From NCBI RefSeq assembly GCF_037392515.1, contig NC_090280.1, positions 20,770,618-20,834,617 on the forward strand: a DNA stretch of 64,000 bases, written 5' to 3'. Below are positions 2,249 through 58,200 of the stretch, in pieces (position 1 is the first letter of the stretch; every line of letters begins with the position of its first letter). A program made the translations under genes and the position numbers. The notes below the pieces were generated by a model. That model was not told the DNA's origin and did not search any database. It was given only the letters and a program-made list of their open reading frames with translations. This DNA comes from Haliotis asinina. Its lineage: Eukaryota > Mollusca > Gastropoda > Lepetellida > Haliotidae.

Positions 2249-5200
2249 CTGCAACATAACGGGAGTTTGGATAATCTAGTAGTTAAAGGTAGACGATCCG
2301 GGTTCAATACCACGCAAGGGTACAACATATGAAGATCATAAAAAAATTGTTAAATGCGGTGTAACACTAAGGTCACTCACTTCTGCAGTATATAGTGGAA
2401 TTATGTTATATGTCTGGGTTCATACACACAAAAGAAACACGCCAATTCGCCTGTCACTCCAAAGACGTGTCCTCTGTTCAGTGTTCAGTGATACGTCTCA
2501 GTGTTACAAAGGTATCAACATCTTAGTTTTCCAGACGTACTGACGTCTGTGTGTTCTAGTGATACGCACGTTTTTGCTCTAGTGGTACCCACGCGATAGT
2601 GTTCCATAGGTACCCAATTTTTAAAGTGTTCCAGAGGTACTCACGTCTTAGTGTTTTAGAGGTACTCGTGCTTGGTGTTCTTGTGGTACTCAGATCTTAG
2701 TGTTCTAGTGGTACTCAGATTGATTATTTTGGTACCCAAGTGCAAGTGTTCCATAGGTACTTAGGCTTTAGTGTTCCAGAGGTACTCACGTCTTAATGTA
2801 CTAGAAGTACTCCCGTCTGAGTGTTCCAGAGGTACTCATGTCTTAGTGTTCTAGAAGTACTCCCGTCTGAGTGTTCCAGCGGTACTCGTGTCTTGGTGTT
2901 CTAGAAGTACTCCCGTGTGAGTGTTCCAGAGGTACTCGTGTCTTGGTTTTCTAGAAGTACTCCCGTCTTAGTGTTCCAGAGGTACTCGTGTCTTGGTGTT
3001 CTAGTGGTACTCAGTTCTTGTTGTTCTTTTGGCATCTACGTGCTAGTGTTCCATAGTTACTCCCGTCTTAGTCTTCTGGAGGCACTCGTGTCTTATAGTT
3101 CCAGAAGTACTCATGTCTTAGTGTTCCAGGGGTACTCCCGTCTTAGTGTTCCAGAGGTACGTCTTAGTGTTCGAGAGGTATTCGTGTCTTAGAGTTCTAG
3201 TGGTACTCAGGTCTTGTTGTTCTTTTGGTACCCAAGTGCAAGTGTTCCAGAGGTACTCACGTCTTTGTGTGCTATATACACTCACGTCTTAGTGTTCTAG
3301 AGGTACTCGTGTCTTATTGTTCCAGAGGTACTCATATGTTTGGGCTCCACAGGTACTCGTGTCTTGCTGTTCTAGTACTCGGGTACGTGTTCTTTTGGTA
3401 CCCAAGTGCTATTGTTTCATAGATACTCACGTGTTGGTTTTCTGGAGGTGCTAGCGTATTAGCGTTCTACAAATTGTCATGTATTATTGTTCCAGAGGTA
3501 CTCACGTCTTAGTTTCTGTACAGCAGTCAGATGTGGTTCCTCTTCCTCCTGGACTTGGGTGGCTTTGCCAATGTTCTGAGATCCTCCAATGTTCAGGTTC
3601 CTGGCTTTAGGTACGGTCACCTGCTGCTCCACCTTGATGAAGTTGTACTGGACTGTCGCTGAAGTGAATGAATGAGTGAGTGAGCTGTTCAGTGTATGAG
3701 TGATTCGATTATTGAATGATTCCTTTCGATAGGGAGTGGATTGTTCAGTAAGTCAGTGGGTCAGTGAGTGGGTAATTCTGTTAGTGAGTGGATTGTTCAG
3801 TAAGTCATTCGGTCAGTGAGTGAGTAATTCTGTTAGTGAGTGGATTGTTCAGTAAGTCATTCGGTCAGTGAGTGAGTAATTCTGTTAGTGAGTGGATTGT
3901 TCAGTAAGTCAGTGGGTCAGTGAGTGGGTAATTCTGATCGTGAGTGGATTGTTCAGTAAGTCAGTGGGTCAGTGAGTGAGTAATTCTTTTAGTGAGTGGA
4001 TTGTTCAGTAAGTCAGTGAGTCAGTGAGTGAGTAATTCTGTTAGTGAGTGGATTGTTCAGTAAGTCAGTCGGTCAGTGAGTGGGTAATTCTGTTAGTGAG
4101 TGGATTGTTCAGTAAGTCAGTCGGTCAGTGAGTGAGTAATTCTGTTAGTGAGTGGATTGTTCAGTAAGTCAGTGGGTCAGTGAGTGAGTAATTCTGATCA
4201 TGAGTGGATTGTTCAGTAAGTGAGCCGCTCAGTAGATAAGTGAGTGAGTGATTCGTGTGGTCAGTGGCTCGTTCAGTGAGTAAGTGCATGATTGAGTCCT
4301 AATCAAGTGTGAATCGTTGAATGAGTGAGTTAGTGGTTCTGTCAATAAGAGGAGTTGGTAGTTCAGTGAGTTAGTGGTTCTGTTTGTGAATGATTAGATG
4401 TTATGATCGGTGGAATAATAGATGAACGGGTGGTTGAGTGATTTTGTGGCTGGTTGTCTTGTTGGTGGTTGAGTTTTTGGCGATTCATTGGTTTGCTTAT
4501 TGAATTGTTGTTAGATAAGTGGATTAGCTGTTTGTATGAGTGACTCAGTGAGTTGATAATCGTTTGGTTGGGCGTTTGAGTGAGTTAATAACGTTTGGAT
4601 GGGCAATTGAGTGAGTTAATAACGTTTGGATGGGCAATTGAGTCAGTTAAGAACGTTTGGATGGGCAGTTGAGTCAGTTAAGAACGTTTGGATGGGCAAT
4701 TGAGTCAGTTAAGAACGTTTGGATAGGCAGTTGAGTCAGTTAAGAACGTTTGGATGGGCAGTTGAGTCAGCTGATGGGGTGTCTGAGTTTGTTGAAGATC
4801 ATTTGGCCATTTATGGCGTGTCAACTTACCAAGACGTCCTTGGTCGGCTTTGTGTGTCGCTATCCCTGAGCCTGGTCCAGGTGTGAGTTCGCCTTGAGTT
4901 GATGGTAGCTGCGACACTGGTGCAGGTGTGAGTTCGCCTTGAGTTGATGGTAGCTCCGACACTGGGGCAGGTGTGAGTTCGCCTTGAGTTGATGGTAGCT
5001 CCGACACTGGTGCAGGTGTGATGAGACCTTGAACTGGTAATAGATAGCAATGACACAATGCAGTTAATACACATTACACAACAAAGTTTGCGACTAGACA
5101 ACAAGTTGACAGAAGTCCACTGATACATCTCAATGACAAACGAATGGTTATATTAGACAATAATAGTCGGGAAATATAACAACAAAGAATCATCTGGACA

Positions 5201-14909: not shown

Positions 14910-15397
14910 TTTGAACAATCTCCAAACTCCTACAACTCCACTTAAAGATAGTGTCTGTCCTGCAAACACTAGACACAAACAACGCCTTGTTTACCGGACT
15001 CACTGGACATTATTGGTACCAGACAGTACTCCTAGAAGGGGACCCGTTCTATCTTTAACCAGCCCGGATCGAGCATTTCTAATGTGAATTAGCGCCCACA
15101 GACATACGAAGTATACAAGTCATTTGTGTTCTCGTATACAGTCTCCCTCGTGGACTTTGACCTCGAGTGATCACTTGGCATGACGAGACTATTCTCATTT
15201 CGTACTTTTGGACAGGAACTGTGGCTATATACAAGTTTTATGATGATGGCGATGATGTATGCGGTTGGTGACACAGTTGCAATTTGACAGGTGATGCGAA
15301 ACTGTATTATCAGAAGAAACACCACTTTATTGCATTTCCCAGTCATAAACGATTTTAATACTGTGCCGTACAACACTAAAATGTGGCCGTACAACGC

Positions 15398-15845
15398 AAT
15401 ATGTTAGGTGATGCAATACTATACGTAAGGGGATACAACACTATATGTAAGTTGATACAACACTATATGTTAGGTGATACAAAACTATATGTTAGGTGAT
15501 ACAACACTATATCTAAGTTGATACAACACTATATGTTAGGGGATACAACACTATATGTAAGGTCATACAACACTATATGTTAGGTGATACAAAACTATAG
15601 GTTAGGTGATACAACACTATATGTTAGGTGATACAACATTATATGTTAGGTGATACAAAACTATAGGTTAGGTGATACAACACTATATGTTAGGTGATAC
15701 AACATTATATGTTAGGTGATACAAAACTATATGTTAGGTGATACAACACTATATGTAAGGTCATACAACACTATATGTTAGGTGATACAAAACTATATGT
15801 TAGGTGATACAAAAGTATACGTTAAGTGATACAACATTATCTGTT
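15398..15845. repeat. 22-bp minisatellite
   Basis: About 20 copies of a 22-bp unit, TTAGGTGATACAACACTATA plus TG, with AAGTT/AGGTC variants. Spacing of 22 was checked across 15430-15500. Confidence 0.92.
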
Positions 15846-16051
15846 CGTAGAACTGCGACATGCTAATGTCGTACAGACATGACTTAGGGTTAGGTTTGCG
15901 CATGCGCCATCGTATCCTTACATCCCCAATTACGTTGATCGACAGGTAGATACAACTCATGCTTGTCATAACAGGCGACTAAAATCATCGGATTGTCAGC
16001 CTCGCTGACCTGGTTGACACGTGTAAAATATTGTATCGCAGCCGCGTAGAA

Positions 16052-17449: not shown

Positions 17450-17695
17450 TCAACCCTTATCAGGCCAAGTGGGTATTTTTGGACCCGAAGTGGCATAAAT
17501 CATGTAATAACTGCAAAACCGTTGGATGATGAAATGTCATATTCCAGGTATTCCTCAAGTTTCTTGACGGTTACATGCCAATGAAATCTAAATATGGTTA
17601 TTCTTTCCGAAAAAGAAAATATTTTGAAAATTAAATCTTTAACCCACTAAGTGCCAAGCCGGGCCTATTAGGCCCGGTCACCCCCCCTCTTTCTC

Positions 17696-18763
17696 ATGGT
17701 GCCTATGGCAAAAATAGAGAAGAGAGAAGTACTGTGGACCAAATCATATGGCATTCCTTTGATCAGAGCTGCAATGTCCCGAAGCAGATTTAAAGAACTT
17801 TTAATATTTTTTCGGTTTGACGATAAATGCACCAGGTCAGCCAGAAAAGAAAAAGACAAGTTTGCCCCATTCCGTGATGTTTGGGAGAAATTCCACTCCT
17901 GTCTTGGCCGCCACTATATTCCAGGCACAAATCTGACCGTTGATGAGCAGCTGGTTCCCTTCAGAGGGAGGTGTTCTTTCATCCAGTATATGCCTATGAA
18001 ACCAGACAAATATGGCATAAAGCTCTTTTGGATTGTGGATTCTGACAGTTTCTACCCTCTGAAATGCATCCCATATGTTGGAAAAGAAGGTCATAACAGA
18101 CAAGTTGGACTAGGCAGACAAATCACTTTGGACTTGTGTCGTCCATTCTTCCAGTCAAATAGGAACATCACTGCAGACAACTTTTTTGTTGATCTTCATC
18201 TTGCAAAGGAGTTGCTCTCCAATGGACTGACACTTGTTGGAACTGTTCGACAAAACAAGCGCTTCCTTCCAACGGATTTTACTGCAAAGACTGGCAGGCA
18301 GCTCCATGACTCTACTTTTGGGTTCAATGACAAGACAACAATTGTCTCGTATCAGTGTAAGAAGAGGAAGTGTGTGACAGTGCTCAGTACCATGCACAGT
18401 GACAAAGAGGTGGACCAGTCCGCCAAGAAGAAGCCAGAAATAATTCTCTTCTATAATGCCACAAAAGGGGGAGTTGACACTATGGATCATATGGCCCACA
18501 AGTATACTACCAAACACAAGACAAAGCGTTGGCCACTTGTCATGTTCTTCAACATGCTTGACATTGCAGGACTAGCAGCATATGTCATCTGGAAGACGAA
18601 GTATCCAGCATGGAAGGTGTCAAACAATGATCGAAGACGTGCATATCTACAGGCTGCTGCTGAAGGGCAAACCCAGTCGGTCTATCAAGAGATATACAAC
18701 AGTACACAATGCGATGTGTCCTCCCTGATGGAGCACCTCATGATACTGAAGAGGACCCCGTGA
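17696..18763 (+). pseudogene. piggyBac transposase (PGBD4-like), N-terminus missing, frameshifted
   Basis: The 355-codon frame covers the DDE_Tnp_1_7 catalytic core. LTVDEQ (D83), ITADNFF (D161) and GGVDTMD (D261) supply the three catalytic aspartates. The start, MVPMAKIEKREVLW, falls inside the domain near PLIRAAMSRSRFKELLIFFR, so roughly 100-200 N-terminal residues are missing compared with typical 550-600-residue transposases. The frame ends in LKRTP, while the expected C-terminal zinc finger continues in another frame at 18709-18894, showing one frameshift near 18650-18760. Enzymatically it would cut and join at TTAA. The minus-strand frames opposite are shadows. Confidence 0.9.
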
Positions 18764-18894
18764 AGCGTCGACGATGTTGCATCTGTGACAGCAAGAAGGA
18801 TAGGAAGACCAACTTGGTGTGCAGCGAATGTTACCGCAATGTGTGCAAGGAGCACAGTTCTTCCACAATTGTGTGTGATGACTGTAAAGAGTGA
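18709..18894 (+). pseudogene. piggyBac C-terminal cysteine-rich zinc finger, shifted frame
   Basis: Reads ...EEDPVKRRRCCICDSK, then LVCSECYRNVCKEH, then IVCDDCKE and stop. The C-x2-C / C-x2-C / C-x2-H / C-x2-C pairs are those of the cysteine-rich domain that binds transposon ends in piggyBac. It overlaps the end of the main transposase frame in a different register. Confidence 0.88.
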
Positions 18895-19042
18895 GCGACG
18901 TTGTGGACTGATGACATAAGTGCGATTACTATCGCACACTGCACTCTGTAACACTGCATTAGTTTAAATTTCCAGAAGTCTTTGAACGGTGTTTGAGACA
19001 AATGTTGCCATGTAAAACCCCTGTTCAGTTACATGGTATACA

Positions 19043-19088
19043 TAAACAAATAAATCATTTCAAGTTTCAAGTTGTTTTATTTCTTCTG
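19043..19088. terminator. Back-to-back polyadenylation signals
   Basis: The plus strand has AATAAA at about 19049, serving the transposase. The minus strand has AATAAA at about 19079-19074, downstream of the antisense gene's stop. The two convergent transcripts would overlap by a few tens of bases. Confidence 0.6.
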
Positions 19089-19115
19089 TTGATACATGAT
19101 CTACCTTAGTAGGGT

Positions 19116-19972
19116 TTAGAGGTAGGTTTTCTGCACAGTGCACATGATTCTGGAGGAGAACGCCACTGATGTGCCACCATCTGCGTCAAGGTCAGGTGTC
19201 GAGAGCTCTGGAATAGAGAAAAGTACAAAATTACAAAGACAATAAAATAAAAACTTAGTACTGACCGAAATGTTGCTTGAAAAACGGATACAAAATGTCA
19301 CATGTATCAAATGGCCATACCTTGTCATCACTATACTGTGCATCATATGTACCAGCAGACGGATCTGGGAAACGCTCTCGAACAACAGATCTGATCTCCT
19401 CGGGGTACACAAGAGTAGTGCCTGGTTCCGCTATCTTTCCCCCATACTGAAACATATAACATCATCTTGAATAAGTCATTTACCAATTATGAACCAATGG
19501 GTGGTTTTCAAAAAATTAAATAATTAATACTTACGATCAGCTGTCCATACATAGCTCTGTACACAGCTTTGCGACTGTCACCATAGTGCAGCAAAACATG
19601 TATGAATCCCTGGGAAGCAGTAAGACTGAAAGAGCAATTGAGAATGAACATCAGACATGACAACAATGTTGAGACACAGTTATTAGTAGCTGATACTATT
19701 TATTCATAATGTCATTTTCCATTTTAATCAGCATTGTATTTGTTAATATTCATGGTTTAACCTTGAAAATTACCCCAAGATCGGGAAAATACACAAGCAT
19801 TTATGTCTTGTATATGAAGACAGAAAAATTAAGATTTGAAATCTGAAAGTTCAGTTTTAAATAAAATCCACCTTTAAAATACAACTAAACGTATTTTCGA
19901 AAATCATTTCATCACAAAAGATAACAGCTATTCTCACCCATTTGCCTTCAGATGCCTCTTCAGGGTTTCCAT
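19116..19972 (-). CDS. Small four-exon gene of unknown function inside the piggyBac element
   Basis: Preferred model: 19972-19938, 19625-19535, 19446-19266, 19207-19116 (132 residues). Junctions are GG|GTGAGA, CTTTCAG, ATC|GTAAGT, TTTCAG, TTCG|GTCAGT and ATTCCAG; the phases (2, 0, 1) agree. An alternative donor AAG|GTATGG at 19321 also keeps an open frame but ends in a different peptide (stop at 19106). The protein reads METLKRHLKANG, LTASQGFIHVLLHYGDSRKA, VYRAMYGQLI, then YGGKIAEPGTTLVYPEEIRS, VVRERFPDP, VWPFDTCDILYPFFKQHFG. I do not recognise the family; the PEEIRxVVRERFP region recalls BEN-type domains only faintly. The frame is also open upstream of the ATG. It runs against the transposase, with a TATA-like TTTATACCCC near 20047-20056, just inside the right end. 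Confidence 0.62.
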
Positions 19973-20130
19973 GATGTCTACAGTGTTGGTATCACAACAA
20001 AGGAAGGGGGATGGCTGGGCCTCTAAGGCCCGGCTTGGCACTTTATGGGGTATAAAAAGCTTGGCCTGATAAGGGTTAATGGGTAGTACATATAAAAAAG
20101 CAAGGGGGTTGGTCCTTTGAGTGAGAGAGT

Positions 20131-55200: not shown

Positions 55201-58200
55201 TTTTTTTGCTTTCTCCGCCTTTATTAACCTTACAATCTCATTAAATTCAAATCCTTACTCTGAAATGATACTTCTGTGCAGAGATCTGACAGCCCCTCTG
55301 TAGGAGATTGCATCAGGTGAACTTTTTGATCTAAGGCATGTTAATTCTTGCCCTGAGTGAGACAAAGATTGAAAGTAGCATCTCTGATTTCAGGTTCTTG
55401 AAAACAGAGCCAAACAACCAGATCCAAATATAAACAATGAAACCTGGAATGTCATATTTTAGGGAAACATTCTAAACATGCAGATGTTCCTTACAACCTC
55501 ACCCAAAAAGACATACTATCATAGAGTTTGTATATGGATGAACAGCTTCTTTATTAGGTGATGTGACGTTTCGATACAGATTCTTGTGTCGTTTTCAAGA
55601 GATGTTTCGATAGGATTCTTGTATTGTTATGTCACATCCTGTTATGAAGTTTGTCTTTTTCCAACTTCTGAAAACTCCACTCTACGTCGTTTATTTAGAT
55701 TTGACATGTAATGCTTGCAAAGGGAGCGTGTGAGGTTAGGGGCGGTGGTTAAAGTGTCCTCTCGTCAGAAGAACCGGGGTTGATTCCCCTCATGGGTACA
55801 ATGTGTGAAGTCCATTTCTGGTGTCCCCTCCTGTTATATTGCTGGAATATTGCTAAAAACAGTGTAAAGGCATAATCACTCGCTCACTCATCTGAATTGA
55901 CCACTTATGAAAAAGCTTCAGATCTTCATGCACAGTATTATCATGTTAGAGGAAAACATTTGATTGTAATGCGATTGTTAACTGGACACTTTCACTCAAT
56001 ATGCTGATCTTGAAATAACCCTATGAAATGAAATTTCTCAAATTTATGAAGGGCTTAAGCATAAGGACAGGGACTTTTGGAACAATAATACATTTAAAAT
56101 TTATGAGAATCATTGAATAGTAACTTTGAAAAAAATGGATTACAATTTCTGATACTATTTTGGAAAATTCCATTTAGTGAAATTCTTGCAAACAGCAATT
56201 CTGCTTTTAATGTAATTTAGAGAATTGGTTCAGGATATGTAAGATATAGTTACTGTTTTATTACTTCCCATTTATTTTTGGGAGGTTTCATTATTCTATA
56301 CTATCAAGAAAATATTGAGTAAAATATGGAAACTTATAAAGGCTGGCTTGGGGATGTAGGGGCATGACTTGTTAGACCTTGATTTAGATTTATGTGCAAC
56401 TAACATTATTCATGTTGTGCCTCAGTTTCGTTTTATTTTATTTTTTTATCCTTTTCTATTATTTTTTGCATATTTCTGCATGAAGTGATATTTTGTTTAT
56501 TGTTTATTTGTATGGTTTTAATGTTTCCTTCCAGATGTAGTGAACTAGTTGCATGGTGTGCAGTATTTGTTTGGAGGGTCTTTCTCTTCAGGTTAAGGCA
56601 TGTTCATCCTCGATAATCCAGGGTGCTGTAGTACAAAGCAACCTTAGAGCTAAGACTACCTTGAGTTTATGTTAAGGTAGGGGAGTTAGAGTCACCTTAG
56701 AGTTGAGACTACCTTGTGTTAAGGAGTTAATGTTAAGGTAGGGGAGTTAGAGTCACCTTAGAGCTAAGACTACCTTGTGTTTATGTTAAGGTAGGGGAGT
56801 TAGAGTCACCTTAGAGCTAAGACTACCTTGTGTTTATGTTAAGGTAGGGGAGTTAGAGTCACCTTAGAGCTAAGACTACCTTGTGTTTATGTTAAGGTAG
56901 GGGAGTTAGAGTCACCTTAGAGCTAAGACTACCCTGTGTTTATGTTAAGGTAAGGGAGTTAGAGTCACCTTAGAGCTAAGACTACCTTGAGTTTATGTTA
57001 AGGTAGGGGAGTTAGAGTCACCTTAGAGCTAAGGCTACCTTGTGTTAAGGAGTTTATGTTAAGGTAGGGGAGTTAGAGTCACCTTAGAGCTAAGATTAAC
57101 TTGTGTTTATGTTAAGGTAGGGGAGTTAGAGTCACCTTAGAGCTAAGACTACCTTGTGTTTATGTTAAGGTAGGGGAGTTAGAGTCACCTTAGAGCTAAG
57201 ACTACCTTGTGTTTATGTTAAGGTAGGGGAGTTAGAGTCACCTTAGAGCTAAGACTACCTTGCGTTTATGTTAAGGTAGGGGAGTTAGAGTCACCTTAGA
57301 GCTAAGACTACCTTGTGTTTATGTTAAGGTAGGGGAGTCAGAGTCACCTTAGAGGTAAGACTACCTTGCGTTTATGTTAAGGTAGGGGAGTTATAGTCAC
57401 CTTAGAGCTAAGACTACCTTGTGTTTATGTTAAGGTAGGGGAGTTAGAGTCACCTTAGAGCTAAGACTACCTTGTGTTTATGTTAAGGTAGGGGAGTTAG
57501 AGTCACCTTAGAGCTAAGACTACCTTGTGTTTATGTTAAGGTAGGGGAGTCAGAGTCACCTTAGAGGTAAGACTACCTTGTGTTTATGTTAAGGTAGGGG
57601 AGTTAGAGTCACCTTAGAGCTAAGACTACCTTGCGTTTATGTTAAGGTAGGGGAGTTAGAGTCACCTTAGAGCTAAGACTACCTTGTGTTTATGTTAAGG
57701 TAGGGGAGTTAGAGTCACCTTAGAGCTAAGACTACCTTGCGTTTATGTTAAGGTAGGGGAGTTAGAGTCACCTTAGAGGTAAGACTACCTTGTGTTTATG
57801 TTAAGGTAGGGGAGTCAGAGTCACCTTAGAGGTAAGACTACCTTGCGTTTATGTTAAGGTAGGGGAGTTAGAGTCACCTTAGAGCTAAGACTACCTTGTG
57901 TTTATGTTAAGATAGGGGAGTTGTAGTCACCTTACCGCAAAGATCACTTTGTACAATGGCACCCATGGCTTTTAGGGCTCCATTCTGTAATAAATATACG
58001 CTGGATCTGTTTGCATCCAACTGCAAAGCTTCATGTCTGTTTACATCACTAATACACAGAATGACTTTTGCATATGAGATTAAAATAGAAAACCATATGA
58101 AAATACCTTGTCTGTCTGTGAGTTGAGTTCATCTTTGTATCAGGGCCAAGGATTGTGTGTCTATGCCTGTCTTAAGGGAGCTCAAGGTTGTGATATGATC

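Follow-up and report, generated by a model that had tools for sequence, protein, structure and literature searches.

piggyBac is widely used as a tool for gene transfer and is usually treated as an element with a single gene. Its transposase carries the DDE_Tnp_1_7 domain, its target is TTAA and its terminal inverted repeats (TIRs) start with CCC, features found both in canonical elements such as T. ni IFP2 and, for the target and TIRs, in family A and the element L062 described below. Kolobok is another TTAA-targeting DNA transposon, in which KolX (Kol0 lineage) is an accessory protein. Kojima and Bao (PMC9587614) traced the origin of the P2X7 tail to KolX and, in one sentence of the part of their paper available to us, state that a few piggyBac families encode a KolX-like protein. 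The protein that we describe resembles these KolX-like proteins in being a second protein of a piggyBac element and in lacking most of the seven cysteines of the P2X7 ballast, but that sentence is silent on position, strand, exon structure, selection and lineage, and a CxxC...KPY tail is a feature of the present protein when set against the available description. We add to this brief precedent evidence on position, structure, selection and lineage, which is not otherwise described in the accessible parts of the open-access literature that we searched.

The antisense gene and its piggyBac element

The window, a stretch of 64,000 nucleotides of the Haliotis asinina genome, contains a 2,622-bp element (positions 17454–20075) that belongs to a short, deletion-derivative subfamily. 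It is bounded by identical 16-bp TIRs, CCCTTATCAGGCCAAG, at 17454–17469 on the plus strand and 20060–20075 on the minus strand, and is flanked by TCAA on the 5' side and TTAA on the 3' side. A subterminal repeat, AGTGCCAAGCCGGGCCT..AGGCCC, begins 197 nt from the left tip (17650–17677, plus strand) and recurs on the minus strand at 20015–20042, where it begins 34 nt from the right tip and lies upstream of the antisense start; the left and right copies are identical at 24 of 28 bases. The initial annotation had called this element a piggyBac, and the transposase bears that out, with a match to PF13843 (E = 2.6e-60), though only from profile position 54 onwards. Membership is also indicated by the TTAA target duplication and CCC-type TIRs. 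The transposase is a remnant (17672–18763, plus strand) that spans DDE_Tnp_1_7 positions 54–348, its N-terminal part being absent, compared to positions 3–348 of 349 in another copy, L016. Its C-terminal Cys-rich region (18664–18894, plus strand) is in another frame, with a 31-column deletion and 3 extra bases relative to L016. Judged from its sequence, the transposase of the window copy is defective.

Between the 3' end of the transposase and the right TIR, four minus-strand exons with GT-AG junctions join into 117 codons plus a stop. Exon 1 (19972–19938, 35 nt) contains the start codon at 19972, exon 2 (19625–19535) has 91 nt, exon 3 (19446–19321, 126 nt) encodes the part that resembles the P2X7 ballast, and exon 4 (19207–19106, 102 nt with the stop) encodes a CxxC motif and a C-terminal KPY. 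These are the four exons first proposed, and the antisense observation at this locus is confirmed with its 3' end and length revised. The 3' end had been placed at 19116, which is the stop of another frame; the true stop codon is at 19108–19106, and the length of about 132 residues becomes 117. We revised the frame of exon 4, which begins at 19207, because the acceptor CAG/AGCTCT scores better and because the related families B, C and D, described below, end in the same ...CxxC...KPY stop. The start had been put about 100 bp inside the right end, and we measured 103 bp from the right tip in the window copy. The gene also converges with the transposase and has its own polyadenylation signal, as originally described: AATAAA motifs on the transposase strand (19049–19054, plus) and on the antisense strand (19076–19081, minus, read from 19081) point towards each other.

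The exons have a GC content of 46–51%, compared to 25–31% in the introns. In a search with a four-exon gene finder (1-kb tiles, both strands) the antisense gene is the top-scoring model of the window, at 130 vs 63 for the best model outside the element, in a test that is not fully independent because its exon and intron composition terms were taken from the antisense locus itself. The predicted protein has a conserved basic core, YPxxIRxVVRxRF, and two cysteines in the window copy, both in exon 4 and none in exons 1–3.

The window also contains minisatellite arrays at 15324–15917, 2500–3513, 3595–4322 and 56620–58040, with units of approximately 22, 25, 52 and 53 nt. A short, SINE-looking, tRNA-like repeat, GTAGCCTAGTGGTTAAAGCGTTCGCTCGTCACGCCGAAGACCCGGGTTCGATT, is scattered through it in at least 10 copies.

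Close copies, diverged families and linkage to the transposase

We searched the genome (1.14 Gb, 159 contigs) for exact TIR sequences and found 19 sites, compared to none for a reversed control pattern. The 19 sites belong to 11 elements, the window copy included, which we call family A; elements in which both TIRs differ from the 16-mer escape this search, and one TIR carries a substitution in each of L022, L023 and L024. All 10 of the other copies have TTAA on both sides, vs TCAA and TTAA in the window copy, and pairwise identity among the 11 is 96.6–99.8%. The antisense exons are present in all 11 elements with this TIR; copies lacking them, which the initial annotation had named as evidence against the gene, did not turn up among these elements. 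Eight of the 11 copies retain the start codon, the GT-AG sites and the frame; the gene is broken in the other three by a one-base loss in exon 1 (L015), loss of the start codon (L022) or loss of a donor site (L023). A single long open transposase frame is seen in two copies, L016 and L022. Four copies (the window copy, L017, L020 and L021) have a common 544-column loss in the N-terminal region of the transposase and have also lost 44 columns upstream of where the antisense gene starts; the other seven are long. All four of these deletion derivatives keep the 117-amino acid antisense frame.

Using the spliced peptide as a query against the genome, we found at least 50 exon matches at 28 or more loci. 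The 11 close copies account for 33 of these matches, through their exons 2, 3 and 4, and the matches listed include 17 diverged loci with 48–64% identity over the matched exon. We examined the sequences of 12 of the 17 (nine with flanks and four, L055–L058, with one locus in both sets). In family B (L062 and L063) the exons are 35, 91, 129 and 114 nt long, with the same phases as in family A, and the predicted protein has 122 residues compared to 117 in family A. Exon 1 is also 35 nt long in families C and D. Families B, C and D have a common C-terminal frame with WRxP, CxxC and then KPY and a stop, and family E shows the CxxC part only. Families C and D were each seen as a single copy, whose frame is disrupted in exon 3 (C) or exon 2 (D). 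The family B element L062 has TTAA-flanked TIRs whose first 12 bases are identical, and its antisense gene again lies between the transposase and the right end.

To compare the families, we read each exon in its own open frame, calculated the proportions of synonymous (pS) and nonsynonymous (pN) differences, and drew 2000 bootstraps. Families A and B have 58 of 114 residues in common (pS 0.789, pN 0.321), A and C 55 of 102 (pS 0.791, pN 0.314), A and D 56 of 106 (pS 0.774, pN 0.316), B and C 47 of 105 (pS 0.729, pN 0.364), and B and D 52 of 108 (pS 0.792, pN 0.354); in each of these five comparisons pS ≤ pN was seen in 0 of 2000 bootstraps. With pS near saturation (0.73–0.79) and pN at 0.31–0.36 between families, the gene has been under long-term purifying selection. 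Closer comparisons give no significant constraint: the C–D pair has 88 of 100 residues in common (pS 0.118, pN 0.060, 132 of 2000 bootstraps), and two B copies, B and B2, gave 342 of 400 bootstraps. On these sequences the C–D branch has little power and constraint shows on the long branches. Among the 11 close copies of family A we detected no constraint on the antisense gene, with 23 nonsynonymous and 5 synonymous changes (2.46:1 expected, P = 0.30), and 28 of 354 exon columns and 35 of 513 intron columns are variable. The transposase of the close copies gave the same result (78 nonsynonymous and 25 synonymous changes, 2.71:1 expected, P = 0.58). The lack of detectable constraint within the family says little either way, because copies decaying after insertion would look alike. 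The absence of codon conservation, which had been proposed as a second argument against the gene, therefore holds for what is detectable among the close copies but not between diverged families, where conservation is clear.

The gene is linked to piggyBac transposases. The PF13843 profile gave 117 listed matches in the genome, which merge into 99 loci, and such a match lies within 3 kb of 20 of the 28 listed antisense-gene loci and within 8 kb of 23. All 23 neighbors are on the opposite strand and convergent with the antisense gene, with approximately 0.0014 expected per locus. A TBLASTN search added a transposase at L064, so that 24 of the 28 listed loci have one, and in the 11 family A copies and L062 the gene lies within the TIRs; in this sense it is encoded by the piggyBac element. 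No transposase was found near the other four, L066, L067, L073 (where 2.3 kb was searched) and C17:1656600. The loci L066, L067 and C17:1656600 may be solo, deleted or host copies; L067 and C17:1656600 score identically in the peptide search. In the reciprocal direction, the antisense gene lies within 8.5 kb of 22 merged PF13843 loci out of 99; the other 77, many of them fragments, have no listed gene copy within that distance, so the gene is not a general requirement of piggyBac.

The carriers form one group in a tree of 12 transposases, in which seven carriers (family A twice, and families B, C, D, E and H, with 39–74% identity between families) split from five non-carriers with support of 1.000. 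This is a small sample of non-carriers (L069, L070, L071, L074 and L075), and reading the carriers as a clade assumes that the root lies among the non-carriers. Non-carrier and carrier transposases are 21–33% identical, apart from L075 and family E at 40%, both of which are partial. With HMMs made from the exons, carriers B, C, D, E and H give matches to exons 2 and 3 at E-values of 1e-14 or better, compared to a best match of E = 0.4 in the flanks of the five non-carriers (in L074, about 0.7 kb beyond the transposase). In this respect the carriers differ from canonical piggyBac elements, such a second gene not being seen in the non-carrier flanks. As a separate observation, the family B transposase match is interrupted for approximately 340 nt near codon 452 (L062 1826–2167, L055 434–775, L058 434–772), close to the 31-column deletion of family A (codon 463); the interruption may be an intron or an old insertion.

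Possible roles of the proposed accessory protein

Its carriage at these loci, the linkage, the selection and the tree together argue that the gene has been inherited within one lineage as its second gene and is not random cargo. We estimate a probability of about 0.6 that one piggyBac lineage carries this as its second gene, which is spliced, begins just inside the right end, is read towards the transposase and encodes a small accessory protein. The initial proposal of an accessory gene of the element stands on its presence in every family A copy, the transposases beside most of its loci and its codon conservation between families. Whereas the gene's repeated presence, fixed place and orientation, A/B exon structure, between-family selection and carrier group can be read from the genome sequence itself, we infer the expression and role of its protein.

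Most likely, the accessory protein would work alongside the transposase, acting in trans on the element ends by means of its conserved basic core and C-terminal CxxC, a role comparable to the one that KolX may have in Kolobok. It would probably bind nucleic acid or nucleotide through the conserved basic residues. The antisense gene starts behind the subterminal repeat, and its promoter is predicted to lie in or next to the right-end region, where piggyBac transposases bind. A promoter in the right subterminal region could make the accessory gene self-regulating. The transposase would be helped or, less likely, restrained by the accessory protein. Whether a partner protein can do either in piggyBac transposition could be tested directly in such a lineage, in which the second gene is conserved.

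Deletion derivatives of the P element make a repressor or copy-number regulator of transposition, and the antisense protein could be a regulator of this kind that is made by autonomous and deleted copies alike. The four family A derivatives without a transposase N-terminus, all of which keep the antisense frame, are in keeping with such a role, as is the start of the gene within the right subterminal region, where a bound protein could switch off transcription of its own gene. We nevertheless consider a repressor unlikely: nothing in these observations separates it from a helper, no selection is visible among current copies, and the derivatives are found at four places (three with TTAA on both sides, and the window copy with TCAA on one side), so that mobilisation in trans, with the gene in place, is probable. 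These derivatives suggest only that the accessory gene does not prevent mobilisation in trans. A small protein that is kept between families, with no Pfam domain found, could also serve to shield the element against silencing by the host or to act on host chromatin. No motif points that way, and a gene of this type would be expected to roam between elements, yet this one tracks a single transposase group among those sampled, which makes such a role improbable.

The four loci without a detected transposase and the neutral-looking change within family A are what would be seen if the gene were a captured host gene or passive cargo. The constant position and orientation of the gene beside a transposase at 24 loci argue otherwise, as do the restriction to one carrier group and, between families, the conservation of residues where synonymous change is near saturation. 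Capture of a host gene was among the origins first suggested; a recent one is not supported, and we regard host or cargo origin in general as distinctly improbable. That the exons are chance open frames and not a gene is barely credible. The lack of codon constraint among close copies fits chance frames, but the antisense gene is the best four-exon model of the window, and unless the alignments are wrong, the matching exons of diverged families, in which pS greatly exceeds pN, refute them.

Resemblance to the P2X7 ballast and KolX

In the initial annotation the peptide had no recognisable family. Pfam searches at E ≤ 10 agree, with 0 families for four pieces from the window and 0 for seven accessory proteins or pieces; as a control, PF20478 (P2RX7_C), the family of the P2X7 cytoplasmic ballast, does match two ballast exons from this genome, with E-values of 1.7e-12 and 3e-08. 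The statement needs to be qualified by a weak relation to the C-terminus of the P2X7 ballast and KolX, and by the precedent in the available text of PMC9587614. A PDB search with the peptide gave nothing useful, and searches of IMG/VR with the peptide, the transposase and a ballast alignment found no relative; six matches to the 16-mer TIR were present there.

The part of the peptide that weakly resembles the C-terminal end of the ballast is its middle. When compared by hhalign, alignments of 11 and 5 sequences gave E = 0.0028 (probability 10.9%, 0 of 500 column shuffles as good) and alignments of 7 and 5 sequences gave E = 0.0058 (probability 6%, 2 of 300 column shuffles as good), E-values that refer to a single comparison. 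The profile-aligned core is GTTLVYPEEIRSVVRERFPDPSAGTY, opposite the ballast protein L025 of the same genome (93 bits to PF20478). In the hhalign alignment the P2X7 residues P570, R578, F581 and P582 stand opposite P57, R65, F68 and P69 of the peptide, with R574 opposite R61. Rump et al. (PMC7016195), in the available part, list the residues that invertebrate ballasts conserve, and in a hand alignment to that list R546, Y550, I/V568, P570, R578, F/Y581 and P582 have counterparts in the peptide, and A549, Y/F553, W559 and C572 have none. Counterparts of R546 and Y550 (R30 and Y34) appear in the hand alignment only; hhalign places that part otherwise, and backs the ballast alignment only from about residue 568 on.

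In a chimera test with Pfam, the exon 3 half of the window peptide scored 17.9 bits, compared to at most 13.0 among 8 shuffles, and the exon 2 half gave no gain (42.7 bits vs 39.6–44.2 in 8 shuffles). A short motif pattern occurs once in the six frames of the window and a long pattern in 3 of 300,000 peptide shuffles, a test that is biased because only the matching positions of the published list were used. Pairwise alignment to mammalian P2X7 is not above background, with shuffles reaching the score 347, 1260 and 1073 times in 3000. The spliced peptide is not among the matches listed for a three-sequence P2X7 HMM, the exon HMMs do not recover the ballast loci searched, and the window peptide does not have the seven zinc-binding cysteines of the ballast.

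Descent of the accessory protein from the C-terminus of the ballast or KolX is, on these comparisons, likely but unproved. The likeness to KolX is in the P...R..FP...G.Y end of the ballast domain, as seen in ballast proteins and not in a named KolX. The differences are that a full ballast has seven zinc cysteines and exons 1–3 of the present gene have none, and that the present element is not a Kolobok but a piggyBac by its transposase and TIRs. Through this resemblance the accessory gene is linked to the origin of the P2X7 tail, as traced to KolX in the part of PMC9587614 that is available. Speculatively, a ballast-type module could be a partner common to two TTAA-targeting superfamilies, Kolobok and piggyBac, and could be a nucleotide-binding or DNA-end-binding cofactor of TTAA transposition. 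It would have been acquired once by a piggyBac lineage and placed antisense at the right end, where basic residues at nucleotide-contact positions were kept and zinc was lost, and the GDP-binding tail of P2X7 would derive from a transposition cofactor. We hold this extended scenario only tentatively, and think it rather unlikely as a whole.

The genome contains other ballast loci. Four of them, L028–L031 (C1:44741078, C13:623467, C3:77215328 and C4:55841693), have only the C-terminal part of the ballast (PF20478 positions 142–192, approximately 31 bits). A piggyBac transposase query had no match in the 3 kb examined at these four, and three flanking frames fit no Pfam family well. Three very similar, fuller ballast proteins, L025, L026 and L027 (on C13, C9 and C16), score 75–93 bits to PF20478, and are perhaps the KolX of Kolobok elements.
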